From positions 1-20,425 of IMG/VR virus record IMGVR_UViG_3300025645_000586: 20,425 nucleotides of DNA; one strand, given 5' to 3'. The position numbers were made by a program, and so were the translations under genes. This document shows positions 9,734-20,425 of the stretch, in pieces; the stretch's first letter is position 1; each line of letters opens with the position of its first letter. Source of the stretch: a virus. The notes under the pieces were generated by a model that made no database searches, was not told the DNA's origin, and saw only the letters and a program-made list of their open reading frames with translations.

Positions 9734-10232
9734 TTAATGAGTTTCATACCAATTATCACCTGACATTGCTTCGCCATCCATACAAGTAACACCAAACAAC
9801 TTAGGTGCTTCTCTGAATGATTCAGCGGCTATTTCCATAGCTCGTTCCACTTGATCCTCTCGTACTGAGAGCTGGAACTCATCGTGATAAAGAACCATCG
9901 GGCGTACATCAATGCCCTCTGCTCTCATCTTGTGCATAGCATATACATAGGCACCTTTACAAGTCACAGCTTCCATGCTTTGAAGCAGGTAGTTGAGAGC
10001 CTTGTGTCCGGAGTCTAGATATATACGTCTACCGTCAATTGCTGGGATGCTTGCCCGTTCCTTACGGTGCTCGCACATCTTGACGATTTCCATAAGGCGA
10101 TCCGTGAGACGTTTGAAGCCGGGAATTGCTGCTGCAAACTTGGCACGGGATTCTCCGCCAGCTTTCTTGTTTCTAACTCCTGTAAGGATGAGACCCAATT
10201 TTTCGAGTCCTGCTCCAAACAGGAAGGCATAG
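9734..10232 (-). CDS. DNA polymerase (family A, T7-type), exon 2: palm/fingers C-terminus
   Basis: This is the 3' exon of the polymerase gene. Joined to exon 1 it encodes residues 456-620. It begins with the rest of motif B (YAFLFGAGLEKLG, T7 YGFLYGAGDEKIG), contains the helix with ALNYLLQSMEA (T7 ALNTLLQSAGA), and ends with motif C HDE in VLYHDEFQL, whose Asp is a catalytic metal ligand. The C-terminus NWYETH aligns with T7 NWAICH. A TTG-initiated frame can be read from 10243, but those first residues are intron sequence, so an independent protein is unlikely. The spliced protein (620 residues) is shorter than T7 gp5 (704). Confidence 0.93.
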
Positions 10233-10905
10233 CAAATGTTCAAAGTGGTTCGTTAAGCCACTCCCGTTCTCTTATGAACTGCTATATGTCACCATATAGT
10301 TCGGACTATATCATCACCTTTCGGTGTTATGCGCTTCCACTCACTTGAGTGTACTCCTTTCGGATAGTCTCTGCACCTTCCAAGTATGTTGCTGCTACCT
10401 TCAGCAACTCAGGGTTGTCTTGAAACAGACCTAAACCCCTATTACAATTGTGACACAATTTACCACGTACAAAGTCAGTGCCGTGTTTATGGTCTAAACA
10501 CAGCTTTTGGGAGTGAGGACCACCTTGCATAGTAAAGCCCTCTAAACCACATATCTGACACTTATCTATTTCTTTAAATTTTAGATAAGCTTTCTTCGTA
10601 TAGTATCCTGCTCTCTTTCTACCTATCATACTCTGAGCGTTACGACATTCTATGCCGCAATAATCTTCTCGCACAGTAGTAGGTTTAAAAAGTGTATCAC
10701 AAAGTTTACAGGGTTTTAATCGGTCTTTTCCAGAACAACCATCACATACAGACTGATTATGAACAAAAGGAGCAAAAGCTAAATTGCATTCTTTACATTC
10801 TTTTTCTTTGTAAGACATAATAAAACTCCTAACTTGGCTTGGCTCAGGATTGTCTCTTACGAGATGTTCCCTGAGTTCACATAATTTAACGTGGACCTAT
10901 TACCA
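10233..10905 (-). ncRNA. Group I intron in the DNA polymerase gene (T4 td-like, IA2-type)
   Basis: This is a 673-nt self-splicing-type intron. The exon end CGTGGAT (10912-10906) pairs over seven bases with the internal guide GTCCACG (10896-10890), with the required U-G pair at the splice site (P1). AUAG next to the guide pairs with the first exon-2 bases CUAU (P10), and the intron ends in G. The core resembles T4 td: CTCAGGGAAC...CAATCCTGAG (P4/P6) around a GUAA-capped P5, AGACTATCC and GATATAGTCC (P7 halves, near 10361-10372 and 10302-10315), CACC-GAAA-GGTG (P8), and CTATATG-GTGA-CATATAG (P9). Splicing restores RNTAKPWIYAFLFGAG, matching T7 motif B. An endonuclease gene occupies the P6-side loop. 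Confidence 0.95.
10327..10818 (-). CDS. Intron-encoded endonuclease VII-like HNH homing endonuclease
   Basis: The 163-residue protein ends in a His-Me finger domain of the endonuclease VII type: C87/C90, LCLDHKHGTDFVRGKLC (D109, H110, H112) and C122/C125, followed by NRGLGLFQDNPELL. The four cysteines bind a structural zinc, and the DH pair is catalytic in the family. The N-terminal half has three more CxxC or CxxxC pairs (C8/C11, C25/C28, C37/C40, C54/C58), probably zinc ribbons for DNA recognition. AGGAG precedes the ATG. The gene lies inside the polymerase intron, and its last 15 codons also encode the intron core (P7 5' half and neighbours). It would cut intronless polymerase genes to spread the intron. 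Confidence 0.9.
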   Translation of the reverse strand: MSYKEKECKECNLAFAPFVHNQSVCDGCSGKDRLKPCKLCDTLFKPTTVREDYCGIECRNAQSMIGRKRAGYYTKKAYLKFKEIDKCQICGLEGFTMQGGPHSQKLCLDHKHGTDFVRGKLCHNCNRGLGLFQDNPELLKVAATYLEGAETIRKEYTQVSGSA

Positions 10906-12269
10906 ATCCACGGTTTAGCAGTGTTACGTTTACAGCCAAGGATGTCGGCGTTCTTCTGATGTACATCTCCATTGATTACCTCATTTGTAAAGTCTTGATC
11001 TTTAATGTAATGACACAAAGCTCTAAACTGGTTACCAGAACTATCGGCACCTACTACCTTGTATCCCCTTTCACAACCGAACAGAGAGCGCATTTGTTTA
11101 CCCCAAGCAGCATCACTACCGGGAACATTAACGACAATCTTGTGACGAGAGCGACCAGTCGGGGTTCCAATAACAAACATATCGCCCCGCAGTCTTCCAT
11201 CATCATCTACGTTTTTAATCCAACCATTTAAGATACCGAGGCGGCTCTTGGTTGTAGTATAAGTATCGATTAGCTTGCCATCTCTACCTAACAAAGCCAG
11301 TGACTCAGAACAGAGCTTAGGTGACTTCTTTTTGAACTCCTTACCAACTTTCTCCCAGTTCCAATCTAAAGGATCCCATCCAATAGAATAAAGGTGGAGC
11401 TTAATGGCATCCATTGATGTGATATCGGGGTATATAAACTCAACACGATTATATTCACCTTCTACCATTCGGGCGCTTGTCTGGCCGTTCTCTGAAGTTA
11501 TCTTGAACCAAGAAGATGTTCTGGCCATATAGCCACCATTTATCTTGAACTCAGGGAACTTCGTCTTTCGATCTAAACACTTAGCCTTCATCTTCATCTT
11601 AGGGTTCATTTCATTTTCAATATCTTCAATCTCGCACTCCATTTCGAACTGAAGTTTGCGAGCAGCATCAATATTGAACACCCAGCCGCCTGCTTGAGCT
11701 TCCGCTGTAAGCTTTGCAACTTCGTGCTCATTACGCATAGATGTGAAAAACATCTTTTTCTTGTCGGGTTCCATGTCCTTCGTGTAGAAGGTCATTTCCC
11801 TTGCTAATAGGCGATACACCTTTTCATTGATGCCAACATCTTCTCGACATCGATGTAACATATCGTCACTATAATTTAGCCAATCTTCATGTTCTGGCTT
11901 CTTCTGCCCTAGGTACTCGCCCCATAAAGCAAGCGCGTGACGTCCATTACCGAAGCGGTCATAGTCAAGCACTTGTGACATAATCATTGTATCTCGAAGA
12001 ATAGTCTTAGGGTTGGGAGTCCAACCAAGCAGCTTCTTCATCAGAGGCAAATCATATGAAAGTATATTATGACCAATTAATTCTTTGGCCGCGTATAGAT
12101 GATCCCACGCTTTCGCTAGTGGTTCCGCTGTGTCCGAGTGGTCACAGAAGATGTACTCTTTACCTGTTTCAAGGTCTCTCGTAACTACCATCCATATGTT
12201 ATCTGCTGCAAGCTTCTTTCCTTGTGTAGAAAGCAAACCATTAGCTTCTATATCCCAGATTAATTTCAT
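10906..12269 (-). CDS. DNA polymerase (family A, T7-type), exon 1: exonuclease and N-terminal polymerase domain
   Basis: This is the replicative polymerase. Exon 1 encodes residues 1-455, the last codon being split (AT from exon 1, C from exon 2). The 3'-5' exonuclease domain has D6/E8 in WDIEAN, the ExoII motif GHNILSYD (66-73), and D144 in CREDV. The usual ExoIII Tyr four residues before D144 is Arg (R140). Motif A is GADSSGNQFRALCHY, with catalytic D409, but Q414 replaces the nearly invariant Glu (T7 E480). Motif B starts RNTAK (K452 equals T7 K522). Reading through the intron without splicing adds about 15 foreign residues and stops at 10857. AGGAG lies seven bases before the ATG. The gene precedes exonuclease and primase-helicase, unlike T7 order. 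Confidence 0.94.
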
Positions 12270-15550: not shown

Positions 15551-15577
15551 GGTTTCTTCTTTAGAAGGTGTCACTTT
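15551..15577 (-). promoter_or_regulatory. Phage RNA polymerase promoter, copy 1 (SP6/T3-like)
   Basis: Identical over 27 bases to 2905-2931. Minus-strand core GTGACACCTTCTAAAGAAGA, with the predicted start G at 15559. It overlaps the stop codon of the RNA polymerase gene and points at SSB, a place where T7-like phages typically switch from early to middle transcription. Similarity to SP6 (GTGACAC, GAAG) and T3 (TAAAG) promoters supports the call. Confidence 0.75.
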
Positions 15578-17904
15578 TAACAAAATGCGAAATCAGACTC
15601 CATTATCGCATTCAAGTCTAAGTTGCCTTTTGGTGGTAAAAGCTCTAAAGCGTTTACTTGGGTTAGTACATCTTCAAGTGGTTCACTGGTGTAAAAGTCT
15701 ACAAAGGTCTCTCTAACTACTCTAAACATATCACTCATGTCTCCTATATGACAACCGAAGCTGTCGTGAATTACTGTAACAGGAAAGTCACAAGCTACTA
15801 TGGTAGATGTTAAATGAGCCGCATCGAATGAATGAACTAAGTTTGGTGCAGCACCTGTCTTCTGTGCTCTCTTCTCTAGCTTTCTTCTTTCATACGGACG
15901 TATAGTAAGTCGCAGGGTATTAGGTGGGTTATAAAGCGCTTTCGCTTCACCTTTGCCTTTGTACTTAGGTCTACTGCTACCTTCTTTGCAAAACCTAACT
16001 TCTAGCTGTATCTCTTTAGTGGCTTCATAGGCTTGGACCACTGGGAATCCAGTTACAGGAACAGTCCACTTCAAGAACTCACCTTGATCATTAGCTCTTT
16101 CAGCTAGTGTTCTGAACAAGTCAAGCATGGCCGCTGGTCCCTTCATATTAGAAAGTGTGGTGTCCATCAACAAGTCGCCGAAGGGGTTAACCCATCCTTT
16201 CTCTTTGAACTTAAGCTCTTCAGACAGGGTTCGAGTATCATCAAATACTTGCTCTCTTACACCCATCTTAGTAACACCGTAGCCAAGAGTCATCACAGGT
16301 CGCTTCACAGTCTTTCGCTGAAGCTTCTTGTCAGTGGCTAGTCTCATCCAGAATGGGACAAACATGCCCTTAGTTTGCTCACGATTATCCTTACGCCACT
16401 GATCAAGCTCAGCAAATACAGCGTTCTTGTCTTCCTTGGTTACAGTCTTTTCCATCTTAAGTTTAATAGCTGTTACTTCTTTAATAAAGCGGTCAGCATT
16501 AGCTTTTAACTCAGGTGAGATCTCTTCGTACAACTCTGCTAGCGCTTGCCAAGTCTTCTCCGCGACGAACATATAGACGTCTCCGGGAATCTCAGTAGGC
16601 ACAAGGTTAACAAGGTGAGCAACAGTATCATCAAGACTCAAAGCTGTCAGATGTTGTACACCGTTATTAGAACCGTCAATAAACAAAGGTAAAGCACTCT
16701 CGTACTCTTCTATGTTGCCTCCATACTCTAACCTTGTCTGTATGTTAGCCCACTCGAAACAACAAGCCAAGAATGACCACGACTTATCTGCTTTAGTCCA
16801 CCCGTTATTAGTGTAGGGGTCTTCAGCGTAAGCACATATGTCATCCATGTTATCTTGAACCCATTGAGCTCTGCCATCCAGTGTTAACTTGTCTTCACCC
16901 CAGCAGTTTGCTGTGTGAACACCAAGCCAGTAAGCACCTTCTTCTCCTAGGGGTTTCTCATGGTCATACAAGATTAAACCTTTAGCATTATCAGACGACT
17001 GTTCGTGTAGATATGAAGACCCGGGGTATATACGGCCTCTGAAGTCACAATTGTACCTGTGATAAAATTTCTTATCTAGGAAGCCCTCTGCAATCGCAAG
17101 GATCGCATCTGCCTCCAAGTACATACCCTCTCTACTTGGTTTTCTTTCCTCCTTCTGATGTTTAAACGGCGAATCCTTATCCACAACAAACTCACGAGAG
17201 AACACGGTTTCCCTATCTTGTTGTTTTAAAAGGGTTTTATACACAGAGAATACTTTATGATTTATAACGTAACCTGTGTTTTGAAGCTTGTTCAAAGCAT
17301 TAAGCACTATTGGACAGTTGTCCTTAGTGATTTGCTCTAGGGCTTTTGAGTTACCTCTACGGATTAATGTATGCCCGTCTACATGATAGCCTGATTCCCA
17401 GTCAGGTGCGGCGGTAGACCTAGGACTCTCTTCTAACGAAGCCACATCTAACTCAGCCCATAACTCTTCAAACAAAGTCTCATCTAGCATATCAAGGTGG
17501 TAGGTAGCATTCTTAGTTCTGCTAGTGTCCTTTCCGCGTTGATGCATTTTCTCTATGCCTAATAATTTAAATTTGGCTTGAGGCTTGTCTTTATTACAAT
17601 AAGCTTCTAGTATCTTTAAACCAAAATACAAAGAGATCCTAGTTTCATTTTTATCATCTTCTTTTACTCCAATGTTTCTTCTAACTTTATTACCAAGCTT
17701 TATTGCGGTTTCAGTTAGCATGGATCTACTTCTTAACGCCATTAACACTGAGCCAAGAGTCATTTCAACAATCTCAATTACAGTTTCATCCCAGTCCATC
17801 CCTTTCTCTTCAAGGTATTCTGGAAACCACTTATTGTTATTTCTCCCGTCCTTAGTGTCTATCAGGCGTTCTGCCATGCTGTCTATAAGGCGTTGTTTCG
17901 GCAT
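15577..17904 (-). CDS. T7-type single-subunit RNA polymerase
   Basis: This enzyme would transcribe the phage middle and late genes from its own promoters. The 775 residues (T7: 883) contain the catalytic residues in order: D410 in FIDGSNNGVQH (T7 D537), K534 and Y542 in TVKRPVMTLGYG (T7 K631, Y639, same 8-residue spacing), and D714 in VIHDSFG (T7 D812). The specificity-loop region (about 663-680, LRLTIRPYERRKLEKRA) is more basic than T7's. The C-terminus is DFAFC, close to the T7 FAFA foot needed for activity. TAGGAG lies seven bases before ATG. Just upstream is a 34-bp hairpin with T12, so expression seems gated. Promoter copy 1 overlaps its stop codon. Confidence 0.97.
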   Translation of the reverse strand: MPKQRLIDSMAERLIDTKDGRNNNKWFPEYLEEKGMDWDETVIEIVEMTLGSVLMALRSRSMLTETAIKLGNKVRRNIGVKEDDKNETRISLYFGLKILEAYCNKDKPQAKFKLLGIEKMHQRGKDTSRTKNATYHLDMLDETLFEELWAELDVASLEESPRSTAAPDWESGYHVDGHTLIRRGNSKALEQITKDNCPIVLNALNKLQNTGYVINHKVFSVYKTLLKQQDRETVFSREFVVDKDSPFKHQKEERKPSREGMYLEADAILAIAEGFLDKKFYHRYNCDFRGRIYPGSSYLHEQSSDNAKGLILYDHEKPLGEEGAYWLGVHTANCWGEDKLTLDGRAQWVQDNMDDICAYAEDPYTNNGWTKADKSWSFLACCFEWANIQTRLEYGGNIEEYESALPLFIDGSNNGVQHLTALSLDDTVAHLVNLVPTEIPGDVYMFVAEKTWQALAELYEEISPELKANADRFIKEVTAIKLKMEKTVTKEDKNAVFAELDQWRKDNREQTKGMFVPFWMRLATDKKLQRKTVKRPVMTLGYGVTKMGVREQVFDDTRTLSEELKFKEKGWVNPFGDLLMDTTLSNMKGPAAMLDLFRTLAERANDQGEFLKWTVPVTGFPVVQAYEATKEIQLEVRFCKEGSSRPKYKGKGEAKALYNPPNTLRLTIRPYERRKLEKRAQKTGAAPNLVHSFDAAHLTSTIVACDFPVTVIHDSFGCHIGDMSDMFRVVRETFVDFYTSEPLEDVLTQVNALELLPPKGNLDLNAIMESDFAFC

Positions 17905-17927: not shown

Positions 17928-18037
17928 AAAAAAAAAAAACGTCTAGCCCCCTGTCCTTACAGGTTTTATACAAAACACTAACAGCCCGAGGGCCATCAAT
18001 GTGTTGTATAAAACCTGTAAGGACAGGGGGCTAGACG
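17928..18037 (-). terminator. Very long perfect hairpin with T12 tract upstream of RNA polymerase
   Basis: The arms 17940-17973 and 18004-18037 are perfect 34-bp inverted repeats. After a two-base bulge, three more pairs continue. The loop holds a small GCC-CTCG-GGC stem. On the minus strand the structure ends directly in 12 T residues (17939-17928), giving a very strong terminator for the early transcript. Only 23 bases separate the T run from the RNA polymerase ATG. The long duplex could also be an RNase III site. The 172 bases between genes hold no other feature except the RNA polymerase ribosome binding site. Confidence 0.88.
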
Positions 18038-18076
18038 CTTGCGCGTGGGTGTTTCTTAAACTCAAAGATAATACTA

Positions 18077-18439
18077 TTACCAATCATCGCCATACGAACT
18101 ACTACTGTTACCCTGGATCATCTTGCGCTCAAGGATGGTCAGTTCGATCTGTGCCTTTCGTAGCTCAATGGCTTCCATCGCAAGCGAGTTATCGTACATC
18201 TGAACACAGTTAACGCTTCGACTATTATCGCGACCTAGCTCGATTTTGTAAGCCATGCGCATGCTACCAGTTTGCGTAAAGGGATCAACTTGTGTGCTGA
18301 ACTCCAAAGATTTACCTGAGGATTTGTCTGAGCTACAGCTGTTACCAAATGCGTTCTGGATTTGAACTCGCTCTTCAGCTTGCGCTATTGACGATAAGCC
18401 TAGAACAAATAGTGCTACGAATGTCAGTTTGTTTTTCAT
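18077..18439 (-). CDS. Exported protein with signal peptide and C-terminal helix (120 residues)
   Basis: The protein begins with a clear Sec signal peptide (MKNKLTFVALFVLGLSSIAQA, cleavage after residue 21). The mature part has two cysteines (C35 and C78), which could form a disulfide. It then has a beta-rich section (LEFSTQVDPFTQTG, MRMAYKIELG) and a charged helix (about 85-110, possible coiled coil), and ends SSSSYGDDW. GGAG lies upstream of ATG. It overlaps the preceding exported-protein gene by 65 bases in another frame. No lipobox is seen, so a soluble periplasmic or secreted protein is expected. I recognise no family. It is the last gene before the long hairpin. Confidence 0.75.
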   Translation of the reverse strand: MKNKLTFVALFVLGLSSIAQAEERVQIQNAFGNSCSSDKSSGKSLEFSTQVDPFTQTGSMRMAYKIELGRDNSRSVNCVQMYDNSLAMEAIELRKAQIELTILERKMIQGNSSSSYGDDW

Positions 18440-18758
18440 CTCGTCCTACTCCTTTTAACCGTGAACATACCAAAAGCTTCTTCTGCTCTGTAGCCTTGAA
18501 TTCTATTACAACATGTCTTTCTGAATTTGGAAGCAATTTATAGATCTTTTTTATCGTTCTCCAATCGTTCGACTTAGTCCGATCTTTTTCCCAAACAAAT
18601 ATCTCAAACACTGCTGGGAAAGGGTAGTCGTTTCTGATCGTGTAAGCTTCCTCGTGATATTTGCCAATCGCTTGTACTACCTGGCTTGAAGGAGACATGG
18701 AGTGCCCTAGCGTGAAGCTAGAGCAGACCATGGCCATTGCGATTAAAATGATTTTCAT
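18375..18758 (-). CDS. Exported protein, possibly single Ig-like domain (127 residues)
   Basis: I chose ATG 18758, which overlaps the preceding stop by four bases (ATGA). A Sec signal peptide (MKIILIAMAMVCSSFTLGHS) is followed by about 80 residues with alternating strands (EAYTIRNDYPFPAVFEIFVWEKD, a Trp-containing turn, YKLLPNSERHVVIEF, KKLLVCSRL). This pattern faintly recalls the first domain of PapD-type pilus chaperones, but only by eye. The last 22 residues are coded by sequence that also encodes the next gene's start and signal peptide, so the native C-terminus may be unusual. It lies in a coupled set of three exported proteins. Confidence 0.68.
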   Translation of the reverse strand: MKIILIAMAMVCSSFTLGHSMSPSSQVVQAIGKYHEEAYTIRNDYPFPAVFEIFVWEKDRTKSNDWRTIKKIYKLLPNSERHVVIEFKATEQKKLLVCSRLKGVGRDEKQTDIRSTICSRLIVNSAS

Positions 18759-19339
18759 TGTATGCACTCGACATCATGTTGGATTAAGTACTCTACTTCT
18801 TCTTTTACCGCAGTCGCATCGACTTCAGCGTAACCGCCAAGTTCAAACTTAGTGTTGAATTCGTCAGTCGTGTTAAAGACACCGGATTTCGCTTCAGTTT
18901 CAGTGCTCCAGACGATGCCGCCAATGTCGATGACTGATATAGAGAAGTCGTCTGTAGTCTTACTTGCAACGCCTACAATATTATCAGCGTTATCTACGGT
19001 GGCATTTTTTGCTTGTTTATAATTATACTTGATCTGCGAGGCGACTGTCTTACCAGTTTTGCTGTCTACTAAGGTGCCTACAGGTGTAACCGCGATAACT
19101 TTCTGGCCTTTAGCTTCGATATCAATTGTACCAACCTTTGTAACGATCCAGGTGCCTTTGCCGTCGTAGGCCATAACCGCGGGGGTTACGTTGGTAAACA
19201 AACAGCGGTCTTCAGTTACGAACGTTCCCTTTGAACCGATTTTAGTAGCACTGTCTGGATTAGGTAAAATTGCTGATTGAGCTCCAAAAGATGCCAGGGC
19301 TAATACTGCTGCGAGTGTTTTCATTTTAAAGTTATTCAT
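18755..19339 (-). CDS. Exported beta-rich protein with signal peptide (194 residues)
   Basis: The ATG at 19339 is preceded by AAAGGAAA and starts a Sec signal peptide (MNNFKMKTLAAVLALASFGA, cleavage likely after QSA at 23). The frame extends upstream to 19417, but the signal peptide makes the inner start far more likely. The mature protein is rich in Thr, Val, Gly and Lys with alternating strands (KGTWIVTKVGTIDIEAKG, VIAVTPVGTLVDSKTGKTV, DDFSISVIDIGG), typical of a secreted beta-sandwich. C46 and C192 could be bonded. A pilin-like or surface-subunit role next to a chaperone-like neighbour is conceivable but weak. The stop overlaps the next gene's ATG. Confidence 0.72.
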   Translation of the reverse strand: MNNFKMKTLAAVLALASFGAQSAILPNPDSATKIGSKGTFVTEDRCLFTNVTPAVMAYDGKGTWIVTKVGTIDIEAKGQKVIAVTPVGTLVDSKTGKTVASQIKYNYKQAKNATVDNADNIVGVASKTTDDFSISVIDIGGIVWSTETEAKSGVFNTTDEFNTKFELGGYAEVDATAVKEEVEYLIQHDVECIQ

Positions 19340-19436
19340 ATTATTTTCCTTTAGGATTTTAGTTTGGTTTTTCATAAGGTTTAAAACATTGATTAGTATG
19401 ACTTTTAATTCTTCCATATTAGATACGTACTTTTTC

Positions 19437-19574
19437 TCACTTTTTTGGTTTATTTTTAACTATTTTTCGAGCATTAAAAATAAGCGATTTTTGCTCTTTT
19501 GTCAAAGAAGCCCATTGGTCTGGGGTGAATATTAGATTAGCTTTCTGTCTTAAAGACAAAGATTTAATATCCAT
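19437..19574 (-). CDS. Small basic protein (45 residues)
   Basis: The ATG overlaps the stop of the DUF1289 gene by one base (TGATG), with AAGGAAA upstream. The 45-residue product is basic, ends KNKPKK, and has a helix-turn-helix-like look: SLSLRQKANLIF, then TPDQWASLTKEQKSLIF, then NARKIVK. Such a short basic helical protein could bind DNA, RNA or a host enzyme, but no family is recognised. It is followed by a 97-base spacer before the exported-protein set, in which I see only a possible in-frame extension of the next gene. Confidence 0.62.
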   Translation of the reverse strand: MDIKSLSLRQKANLIFTPDQWASLTKEQKSLIFNARKIVKNKPKK

Positions 19575-19732
19575 CACTTATTTCCTTTTATGTTATTCAT
19601 AATAGTTTTACGCTTTTCTTCACTGTACTTAGACCACATCTTAATATCTTTTAAAGTTCTTTTACAACCTGTACAGGCGTCTCTGTAAATTCTACAGGCA
19701 CTTATACAGGGAGAGCTTGCTGGTTTGTCCAT
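19574..19732 (-). CDS. DUF1289 family protein
   Basis: The 52-residue protein matches the bacterial DUF1289 pattern: SPCISACRIYRDACTGCKRT followed by LKDIKMWSKYSEEKRKTIM. The four cysteines (SPC, C, C-x-x-C with GC-R-T) are the family's hallmark and probably bind a metal. The ATG at 19732 has a strong AAGGAGG ribosome binding site eight bases upstream. The frame opens further upstream (19765) but that part overlaps the preceding gene. DUF1289 proteins are common in proteobacteria, where their function is unknown. Here the gene is likely host-derived and expressed early. It is coupled to the 45-residue gene. Confidence 0.85.
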   Translation of the reverse strand: MDKPASSPCISACRIYRDACTGCKRTLKDIKMWSKYSEEKRKTIMNNIKGNK

Positions 19733-19746
19733 AAGAAAATCCTCCT

Positions 19747-19941
19747 TTATTTGTATGAAGCACAAGAGTCTGTCTTGTTAATAAAGTCTGCACCCTTCTG
19801 TGAAGAAGACAACCGATCTACACAATTGTCATATGTGCCACTTGCCAGTTTAAATGAACCTGATTGTGCTAAAGCTCCAATTATAAAAATAGCGATAACA
19901 GTGTAGATTGAAGCTTTAAGTAGTTTTTTAATAAATTTCAT
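19747..19941 (-). CDS. Membrane-anchored small protein, paralogue A (64 residues)
   Basis: The ATG with AAGG upstream starts MKFIKKLLKAS, followed by one hydrophobic segment (about 12-27, IYTVIAIFIIGALAQ) that acts as a membrane anchor or uncleaved signal. The outer part has two cysteines in YDNCVDRLSSSQKGADFINKT-x-C and ends CASYK. It is a clear paralogue of the gene at 20055-20264: the same MKFIKK start, hydrophobic segment and C-terminal pattern C-x3-LS-x3-KG-x-x-FIN-x3-C-x-x-YK. The cysteines probably form a disulfide in the periplasm. Role unknown; a small envelope protein expressed early could be involved in superinfection exclusion. Confidence 0.72.
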   Translation of the reverse strand: MKFIKKLLKASIYTVIAIFIIGALAQSGSFKLASGTYDNCVDRLSSSQKGADFINKTDSCASYK

Positions 19942-19983
19942 AATAATTACCTTTTTATTTAAGTTAAGAATCTGTCTCATCAG

Positions 19984-20020
19984 CACATGTAGATTAGTTC
20001 ATGTGGACGCCCGAAGGCGT
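19984..20020 (-). promoter_or_regulatory. Two stem-loops between the paralogous genes
   Basis: Two hairpins lie in the 113 bases between the two MKFIKK genes. One is ACGCC-TTCG-GGCGT (20020-20007, 5 bp with a stable UUCG loop); the other is CACATG and CATGTG around ten bases (20005-19984). Neither is followed by a T run, so they look more like mRNA stability or processing elements, or an operator, than a terminator. Confidence 0.45.
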
Positions 20021-20054
20021 TTCGACTTTACTTTCTGTCTACGAAGTATAAGGG

Positions 20055-20264
20055 TTATTTGTACTCGCTACAATAATCTCTGTTATTAATAAACTCTTTA
20101 CCTTTTTCTTCATCAGACAAACTAGCTTTACACCTCTCATACATAGTAAGACTGCTGGTTTTATTAAGTTGTGATCCATCGCCAGGACCTACTATAGCGC
20201 CTAGCACTATAAGGGCTACAAAAATAGCAGTTAAAACTTTAAGTGATTTCTTAATAAATTTCAT
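20055..20264 (-). CDS. Membrane-anchored small protein, paralogue B (69 residues)
   Basis: The ATG is preceded by AAAGGAAAC. The product begins MKFIKKSLKVLTAIFVALIV, with one membrane segment (about 9-26), then a Gly-rich linker (GPGDGSQ) and a C-terminal domain YERCKASLSDEEKGKEFIN, ending CSEYK with two cysteines. The gene at 19747-19941 is its tandem paralogue, with near-identical first 15 bases. No lipobox is seen. Both may be exported small proteins anchored in the inner membrane with a disulfide-held head outside. Confidence 0.74.
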   Translation of the reverse strand: MKFIKKSLKVLTAIFVALIVLGAIVGPGDGSQLNKTSSLTMYERCKASLSDEEKGKEFINNRDYCSEYK

Positions 20265-20317
20265 AATAGTTTCCTTTATTTTAAAAAGTTTGGAGTGGGG
20301 GAGAACCTTGTCAATAC

Positions 20318-20425
20318 TTATTTCACTAGCTTATCGATTTTATTTACGTCCAGCACTCTAACAGAAATTGTGGTGGTCTCCAGGTTGCTGCTTCTGAATC
20401 TCATATCCCGATCCATGGAGTACTC
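20318..20425 (-). CDS. Partial gene: C-terminal end entering from the right edge
   Basis: A frame open to the window edge ends with TAA at 20318 and encodes 35 residues (DRDMRFRSSNLETTT then ISVRVLDVNKIDKLVK). It could be the end of a longer gene or, less likely, a 32-codon gene starting at the ATG at 20416. No motif can be named. The following 53 bases to the next gene include TTGACA (20314-20309), without a convincing -10 box. Confidence 0.5.
   Translation of the reverse strand, partial: EYSMDRDMRFRSSNLETTTISVRVLDVNKIDKLVK

Follow-up and report, generated by a model that had tools for sequence, protein, structure and literature searches.

A mobile cassette of three overlapping genes for putatively exported, two-cysteine proteins is exchanged between unrelated phages

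What is the function of three small, overlapping genes with predicted export signals that stand next to the RNA polymerase gene of a T7-like phage? They lie in a 20,425-nt stretch of viral DNA (positions 1 to 20,425 of IMG/VR record IMGVR_UViG_3300025645_000586), which we call the window. An earlier note, made from the sequence alone, had described three successive genes joined by a four-base and a 65-base overlap, and both the ORFs and the overlaps were found where it had placed them. All are on the minus strand: gene 1 (P0001, 194 aa) at 18755..19339, gene 2 (P0002, 127 aa) at 18375..18758 and gene 3 (P0003, 120 aa) at 18077..18439, with a T7-type RNA polymerase (RNAP) gene (15577..17904, minus strand; PHROGs match phrog_414) directly downstream. 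Genes 1 and 2 share ATGA (18755-18758); genes 2 and 3 share 65 nt (18375-18439), in which the 21-residue signal peptide of protein 3 is overprinted on the 3' end of gene 2 and the C-terminus of protein 2. Direct reading of the sequence revealed a ribosome-binding site, AAAGGA, 5' of the ATG of gene 1. Across pairs of copies of the trio, dN/dS was 0.02-0.24, indicative of purifying selection. Because independent phages under such selection preserve both the reading frames and their overlaps, the three ORFs are real genes.

Signal peptides were scored with a simple n/h/c-region scorer as a stand-in for SignalP. Signal-like N-termini were found in 6 of the 35 genes of the window, and five of these six sit among the seven genes upstream of the RNAP gene, namely the trio and two genes for small two-cysteine proteins. 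Shuffled versions of the trio proteins equalled the real score in only 1/2000 to 7/2000 cases, which bears out the Sec signal peptide previously proposed for each protein (about residues 1-23 in protein 1). Upstream of the trio on the same strand, the scorer predicted a small exported or membrane-anchored two-cysteine protein at 19747..19941 and a small exported one at 20055..20264, which by eye looks like a paralogue of the former. Together with the lipoprotein gene described below, these genes make the region around the trio appear strongly envelope-directed. A 52-aa DUF1289 protein, seen here in a phage, is encoded at 19574-19732 (minus strand; E 1.4e-15), and similar ORFs are present in four relatives of the window phage (L021-L024).

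The mature part of each trio protein contains exactly two cysteines: C46 and C192 in protein 1, C98 and C118 in protein 2, and C35 and C78 in protein 3. The pairs are conserved in every relative examined, and all 18 tabulated proteins have exactly two mature cysteines in matching places, a pattern suggestive of disulfides. The C-terminal part of protein 3 probably forms a coiled coil. The model of protein 2 is a six-strand Ig-like sandwich, predicted as a single domain, with a mean pLDDT of 61 (mostly 65-84 in the core), whereas that of protein 1 (pLDDT 34.5) was too poor for its fold to be judged. The earlier note had called all three mature parts beta-rich with paired cysteines; the cysteines were confirmed throughout, the beta-richness for the protein 2 model only.

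A faint likeness of protein 2 to PapD-type domains and of protein 1 to pilins had also been proposed. The top Foldseek matches of protein 2 include DraB, Caf1M and CfaA at non-significant E values of about 0.02-0.06; the best PapD-family match (E 0.02, TM about 0.47) did not stand above other Ig domains, and the list mixes in transglutaminase and GH2 Ig domains. No gene-2 member matched PF00345 (PapD_N) or related Pfam models at E values up to 5-10, and protein 2, with 127 aa including the signal peptide and one domain in the model, does not have the two-domain build of PapD. Among the ORFs of the window, L001, L003, L021 and L023 (partial records), no usher gene was seen. What stands of the PapD hint is the Ig-like fold with chaperones among its top matches. 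For protein 1, no profile match to pilins was obtained; a weak likeness comes from its counterpart in Vibrio phage 51E28.1, which to our own reading looks pilin-like, and from counterparts whose two cysteines lie one within the first third of the chain and the other at the C-terminus. These features would suit interference with pili or other surface structures, in which protein 1, as a pilin-like decoy, and the chaperone-like protein 2 jam a host pilus or beta-sandwich structure, so that a receptor is removed or pilus functions are blocked. With neither a Pfam pilin nor a Pfam PapD match, and with only non-significant fold matches, we regard such interference as unlikely.

Sequence searches of Pfam, PHROGs, NCBIfam, PADLOC and PDB assigned the trio to no significant annotated family. 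Weak matches to YtxH, to GxGYxYP, to UPF0182 in Rhodococcus plasmids and, for protein 3, to an antibody VH chain (E 0.017) were set aside as chance. No relative turned up when 84,980 genomes of bacteria and archaea were scanned with patterns from proteins 3 and 1, a method that detects close relatives only. Since the libraries searched gave neither name nor function, and no description of such a three-protein set was found in the open-access literature, the suggestion that this is an undescribed system is supported.

Scanning IMG/VR, we found six contigs with close copies of the cassette (L001-L004, L006 and L007). The DNA identity to the window is 91-97% in L001-L004 and L006, and 88% over the last 314 nt in L007. 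The exchanged block (18078..19344, minus strand; 91-97% identical to L001-L004) has sharp borders, starting 5 nt before the first ATG and ending at the last stop codon. The phages around it are far more distant: core proteins of the window and L001 (RNR, primase-helicase, SSB, polymerase, exonuclease and endonuclease) are 27-46% identical. The insertion sites also differ. In L001-L004 the cassette is located between the SSB and DNA polymerase genes; in the window it is located before the RNAP gene. L010-L013, with a polymerase that shares 81% identity with that of L001, have an empty SSB-polymerase site, the gap being about 85 nt in L011-L013 and 175 nt in L010. The L001-type phages resemble cobaviruses, the L001 RNR having 66-72% identity to its counterparts in Roseobacter and Lentibacter phages; no RNAP gene was seen in the L001-type contigs, all of which are partial.

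Relatives at the window's own site were found by a scan with the window RNAP. L021, with an RNAP 98% identical, carries a diverged allele of the trio there: proteins 1, 2 and 3 are 27%, 43% and 36% identical to those of the window, between flanks with 92-96% DNA identity, and genes 2 and 3 likewise overlap, by about 62 nt. In L022-L024 (RNAP 88% identical) the cassette is absent, and a hairpin and the RNAP gene come straight after the 47-aa gene that precedes the site. The two phage types share samples: metagenome number 3300025652 belongs to both L001 and L022, and 3300025645 to both L003 and L023. Clearly, the trio is a module that is mobile between unrelated phages and swaps alleles, and gene 1 is its most variable member. 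That protein 1 changes most between alleles would suit a part whose target varies.

Mobile accessory genes that are present or absent and swap alleles are also common in the arms race, and the target of the trio could be a periplasmic or outer-membrane defence or stress response of the host, which it would neutralise. The early-type promoter before the L001 cassette (see below) would agree with such counter-defence, but no defence target is known and the identical pattern fits exclusion of rival phages; we therefore give counter-defence a low probability.

The hairpin between cassette and RNAP gene (17937..18040, minus strand) has a 49-bp stem followed by a T tract (-87.2 kcal/mol, z -14). It is kept in L021-L024, where four pairs are changed on both sides and 7 of 45 are disrupted in one relative or more; a search of IMG/VR for one arm of the hairpin gave no exact copy. 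As it is also present in relatives that lack the cassette, it belongs to the site and not to the mobile block. For the same reason, and because it does not stand beside the copies in L001 and L003, we rejected this inverted repeat as a transposon or integron end.

Small ribozymes are further elements of these regions. A type II hammerhead (Rfam RF02276) was found at 19974-20026 of the window (minus strand); its score of 30.9 bits, with an E value of 6e-5 that refers to the short stretch scanned, is below the gathering score of 37, and 5x shuffled sequence gave no match. Further copies are present in L021 (4459-4513, 4927-4979 and 5655-5707), L022 (4592-4646) and L023 (7946-8000). They sit between small genes, three of them in L021 alone. 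Stem I differs between copies in both of its strands (CACATG/CATGTG versus TATAGG/CCTATA), and the stability of the plain MFE fold is nothing out of the ordinary. Type I-like hammerheads with a CTGATGA..GAAA core occur in L001 (6390-6446; also in L004) and L012 (21723-21802). The one in L001, placed between the SSB gene and the cassette promoter, forms a three-way junction in the MFE fold and scored 23.5 bits with RAGATH-1-hammerhead, below gathering. Elsewhere in the window (9734-12269, minus strand), the DNA polymerase gene is split into two ORFs, with a 163-aa cysteine-rich, HNH-like ORF (10327-10818) between the halves; by our own reading this is perhaps a homing endonuclease insertion.

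The trio had been placed in the early region of a T7-like phage. The T7-type RNAP gene does follow directly, but in L021 and L023 the stretch matching the trio region comes after tail and lysis genes on the same strand, so early expression in the window phage is putative. In the L001 lineage, a promoter module, AAATGAAATAA(A)GTG-TTGACA-N16/17-TATAAT, precedes small genes in many copies in L001 (consensus matches at 160, 832, 1187, 6484 and 11139), L011 (14106-16844) and L013 (13423-16895). One copy stands before the cassette in L001 (6484-6512), and likewise in L004; another precedes the L001 lipoprotein gene (11139). The module looks early-type, which suggests early expression of the cassette in this lineage. 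No promoter of its own was evident at the window cassette, and a scan of L003 likewise gave none. Such a many-copy module in cobavirus-like phages is a possible seed for gene shuffling.

A second recently exchanged stretch lies at the end of the window. Positions 20299..20425 (minus strand), comprising the 3' end of a lipoprotein gene and the -35 half of an L006-type promoter, are identical to L006 4983-5109 at 126 of 127 positions, and the match breaks inside the promoter spacer. The complete gene encodes a 325-aa orphan lipoprotein with a glycine/proline-rich linker that is common to both phage types (L001 11196-12173; L006 4113-5090); the window contains just its 3' end. A match of the lipoprotein to JetB (E 0.0012) was set aside as chance. 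As the promoter is many-copy in the L001/L011 lineage and the window has only a fragment of it, the lineage of the window most likely received the gene from an L006-like phage.

Employing tblastn with protein 3 of L021, we obtained weak matches in Vibrio phages, and a trio was seen around those matches. The carriers are 1.081.O (L029; a T4-like Schizotequatrovirus, with the host given as Shewanella in its record), 2.275.O (L030), D479 (L031) and 51E28.1 (L032; trio genes SIPHO067v1_p0041-0043). The trio thus recurs in T4-like and jumbo Vibrio phages and in the 83-kb phage 51E28.1; 18 further records of the 83-kb type matched at the same place. The gene order is 2-3-1 in 1.081.O, 2.275.O and D479 and 1-2-3, with overlaps, in 51E28.1. 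We built HMMs of the mature parts from one phage group alone and ran them on 2920 six-frame ORFs. Podophage-only HMMs found gene 3 (E 1e-7) and gene 2 (E 0.011) of L029; Vibrio-only HMMs found gene 3 (E 4e-8) and gene 2 (E 2e-4) of L021, and the window members at 0.03-0.05. These profile matches support homology of genes 2 and 3 between podophages and Vibrio phages. For gene 1 no profile match linked the two groups among the same ORFs, and its putative counterparts were assigned by architecture: position, size, signal peptide, and one cysteine at residue 36-52 with another at the extreme C-terminus. In 51E28.1, genes 2 and 3 were assigned mainly by order, size and cysteine pattern, and protein 3 lacks a clear signal peptide in its annotated form. 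The family phrog_37374, of unknown function, was matched by protein 3 of the Vibrio-phage relatives L029-L031 (E 1e-5 to 9e-7), but for the window protein the PHROGs search reported no such match.

The Vibrio phages bring in the control of lysis time as another role, by which the proteins would resemble periplasmic antiholins or lysozyme inhibitors; T4 RI and Sp are examples of such proteins. Exported proteins with two cysteines are in keeping with it, the D479 trio lies two genes after rIIA/rIIB (annotated as lysis inhibitors), lysis genes are found upstream of the trio stretch in L021, and gene 1 of L030 weakly matches the T4 spackle family (E 0.013, in the signal peptide region only). On the other hand, there are three proteins and not one, the close relatives L022-L024 keep their lysis genes without the trio, and the podophage trio adjoins the RNAP or polymerase gene; such a role seems quite improbable to us. 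Less probable still is a structural role, in which the proteins would be virion decorations or parts of a phage-specific structure on the cell surface. An exported beta-rich protein with a chaperone-like partner would fit, but Sec export is unusual for virion proteins, and the trio is distant from head and tail genes and absent in close relatives.

We prefer superinfection exclusion at the envelope, to which we give a probability of about 0.4. The three genes are one horizontally mobile phage cassette, and the three Sec-exported two-cysteine products would probably assemble into a complex, either in the periplasm or at the infected cell's surface. Protein 1 would be the fast-changing part that faces outward or towards the target. 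Protein 2, with its predicted single Ig-like domain, would serve as a periplasmic partner or chaperone of protein 1, PapD-like in its working, which does not imply membership of the PapD family; protein 3 would be a second conserved partner. Because the end of gene 2 also encodes, in another frame, the signal peptide of protein 3, proteins 2 and 3 are probably made together. Both the complex and the chaperone role are suggested by sequence and the protein 2 model. Made during infection, the complex would act at the envelope against competing phages, either masking a receptor or stopping DNA entry. The repeated gain, loss and exchange of trio alleles among co-occurring phages would then be accounted for. 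Counting against it, close copies turned up in just six further contigs of IMG/VR, neither PADLOC models nor named exclusion proteins matched the trio, the fold matches of protein 2 are not significant, no profile links gene 1 of the podophages to that of the Vibrio phages, and the annotated protein 3 of 51E28.1 shows no clear signal peptide. More speculative, and somewhat unlikely as a whole, is that an undescribed, minimal and self-contained, usher-less set of subunit, chaperone and partner, common to T7-type, cobavirus-like, T4-like, jumbo and 83-kb Vibrio phages and exchanged among phages, arms the cell surface against rivals, with protein 1 alleles setting the specificity.

The trio links an unannotated operon to a module found across at least four very different phage groups, and since cultured Vibrio phages are among the carriers, its function is testable now. 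Its recent exchange between unrelated phages is a natural record of traded genes. If the trio excludes rivals, virulent marine phages compete via a common, swappable multi-protein envelope system.

Among known systems, PeSLs are described in PMC4503421, where Arbiol 2010 and Comeau 2014 are cited, as units of promoter plus stem-loop by which small early genes of T4-type phages are shuffled. Going by that account, there are similarities: small genes of the L001/L011 lineage, including the L001 cassette and lipoprotein gene, follow a repeated host-type promoter, a stem-loop stands before the L001 lipoprotein gene (11090-11155), and the window has acquired one half of such a promoter. Measured against the same account, the carrier is not T4-type, and the exchange borders of the cassette are at ORF ends and not in the promoter.

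With chaperone-usher systems, the trio has in common the predicted Ig-like protein 2, with its DraB/Caf1M/CfaA fold matches, and a protein 1 that may be pilin-like; it differs in that protein 2 has one domain and not two, without a PapD_N match, and no usher was seen.

Closer in kind are envelope-acting morons. T5 Llp is a moron of this type that acts in superinfection exclusion. Ltp of S. thermophilus phages (PMC3952083) and SieA of P22 (PMC11436027) are envelope superinfection-exclusion proteins as well. These are single proteins, several of them prophage-encoded, whereas the trio is a conserved three-protein set, no lysogeny gene was seen in its phages, it has no sequence match to them, and exclusion by it is putative. 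Like them, it consists of small proteins that are, judging from their signal peptides, exported or membrane proteins; it was recently acquired by horizontal transfer, is mobile and is dispensable to the phage backbone; and in one lineage it has its own promoter. In kind, the trio resembles the envelope-acting morons.
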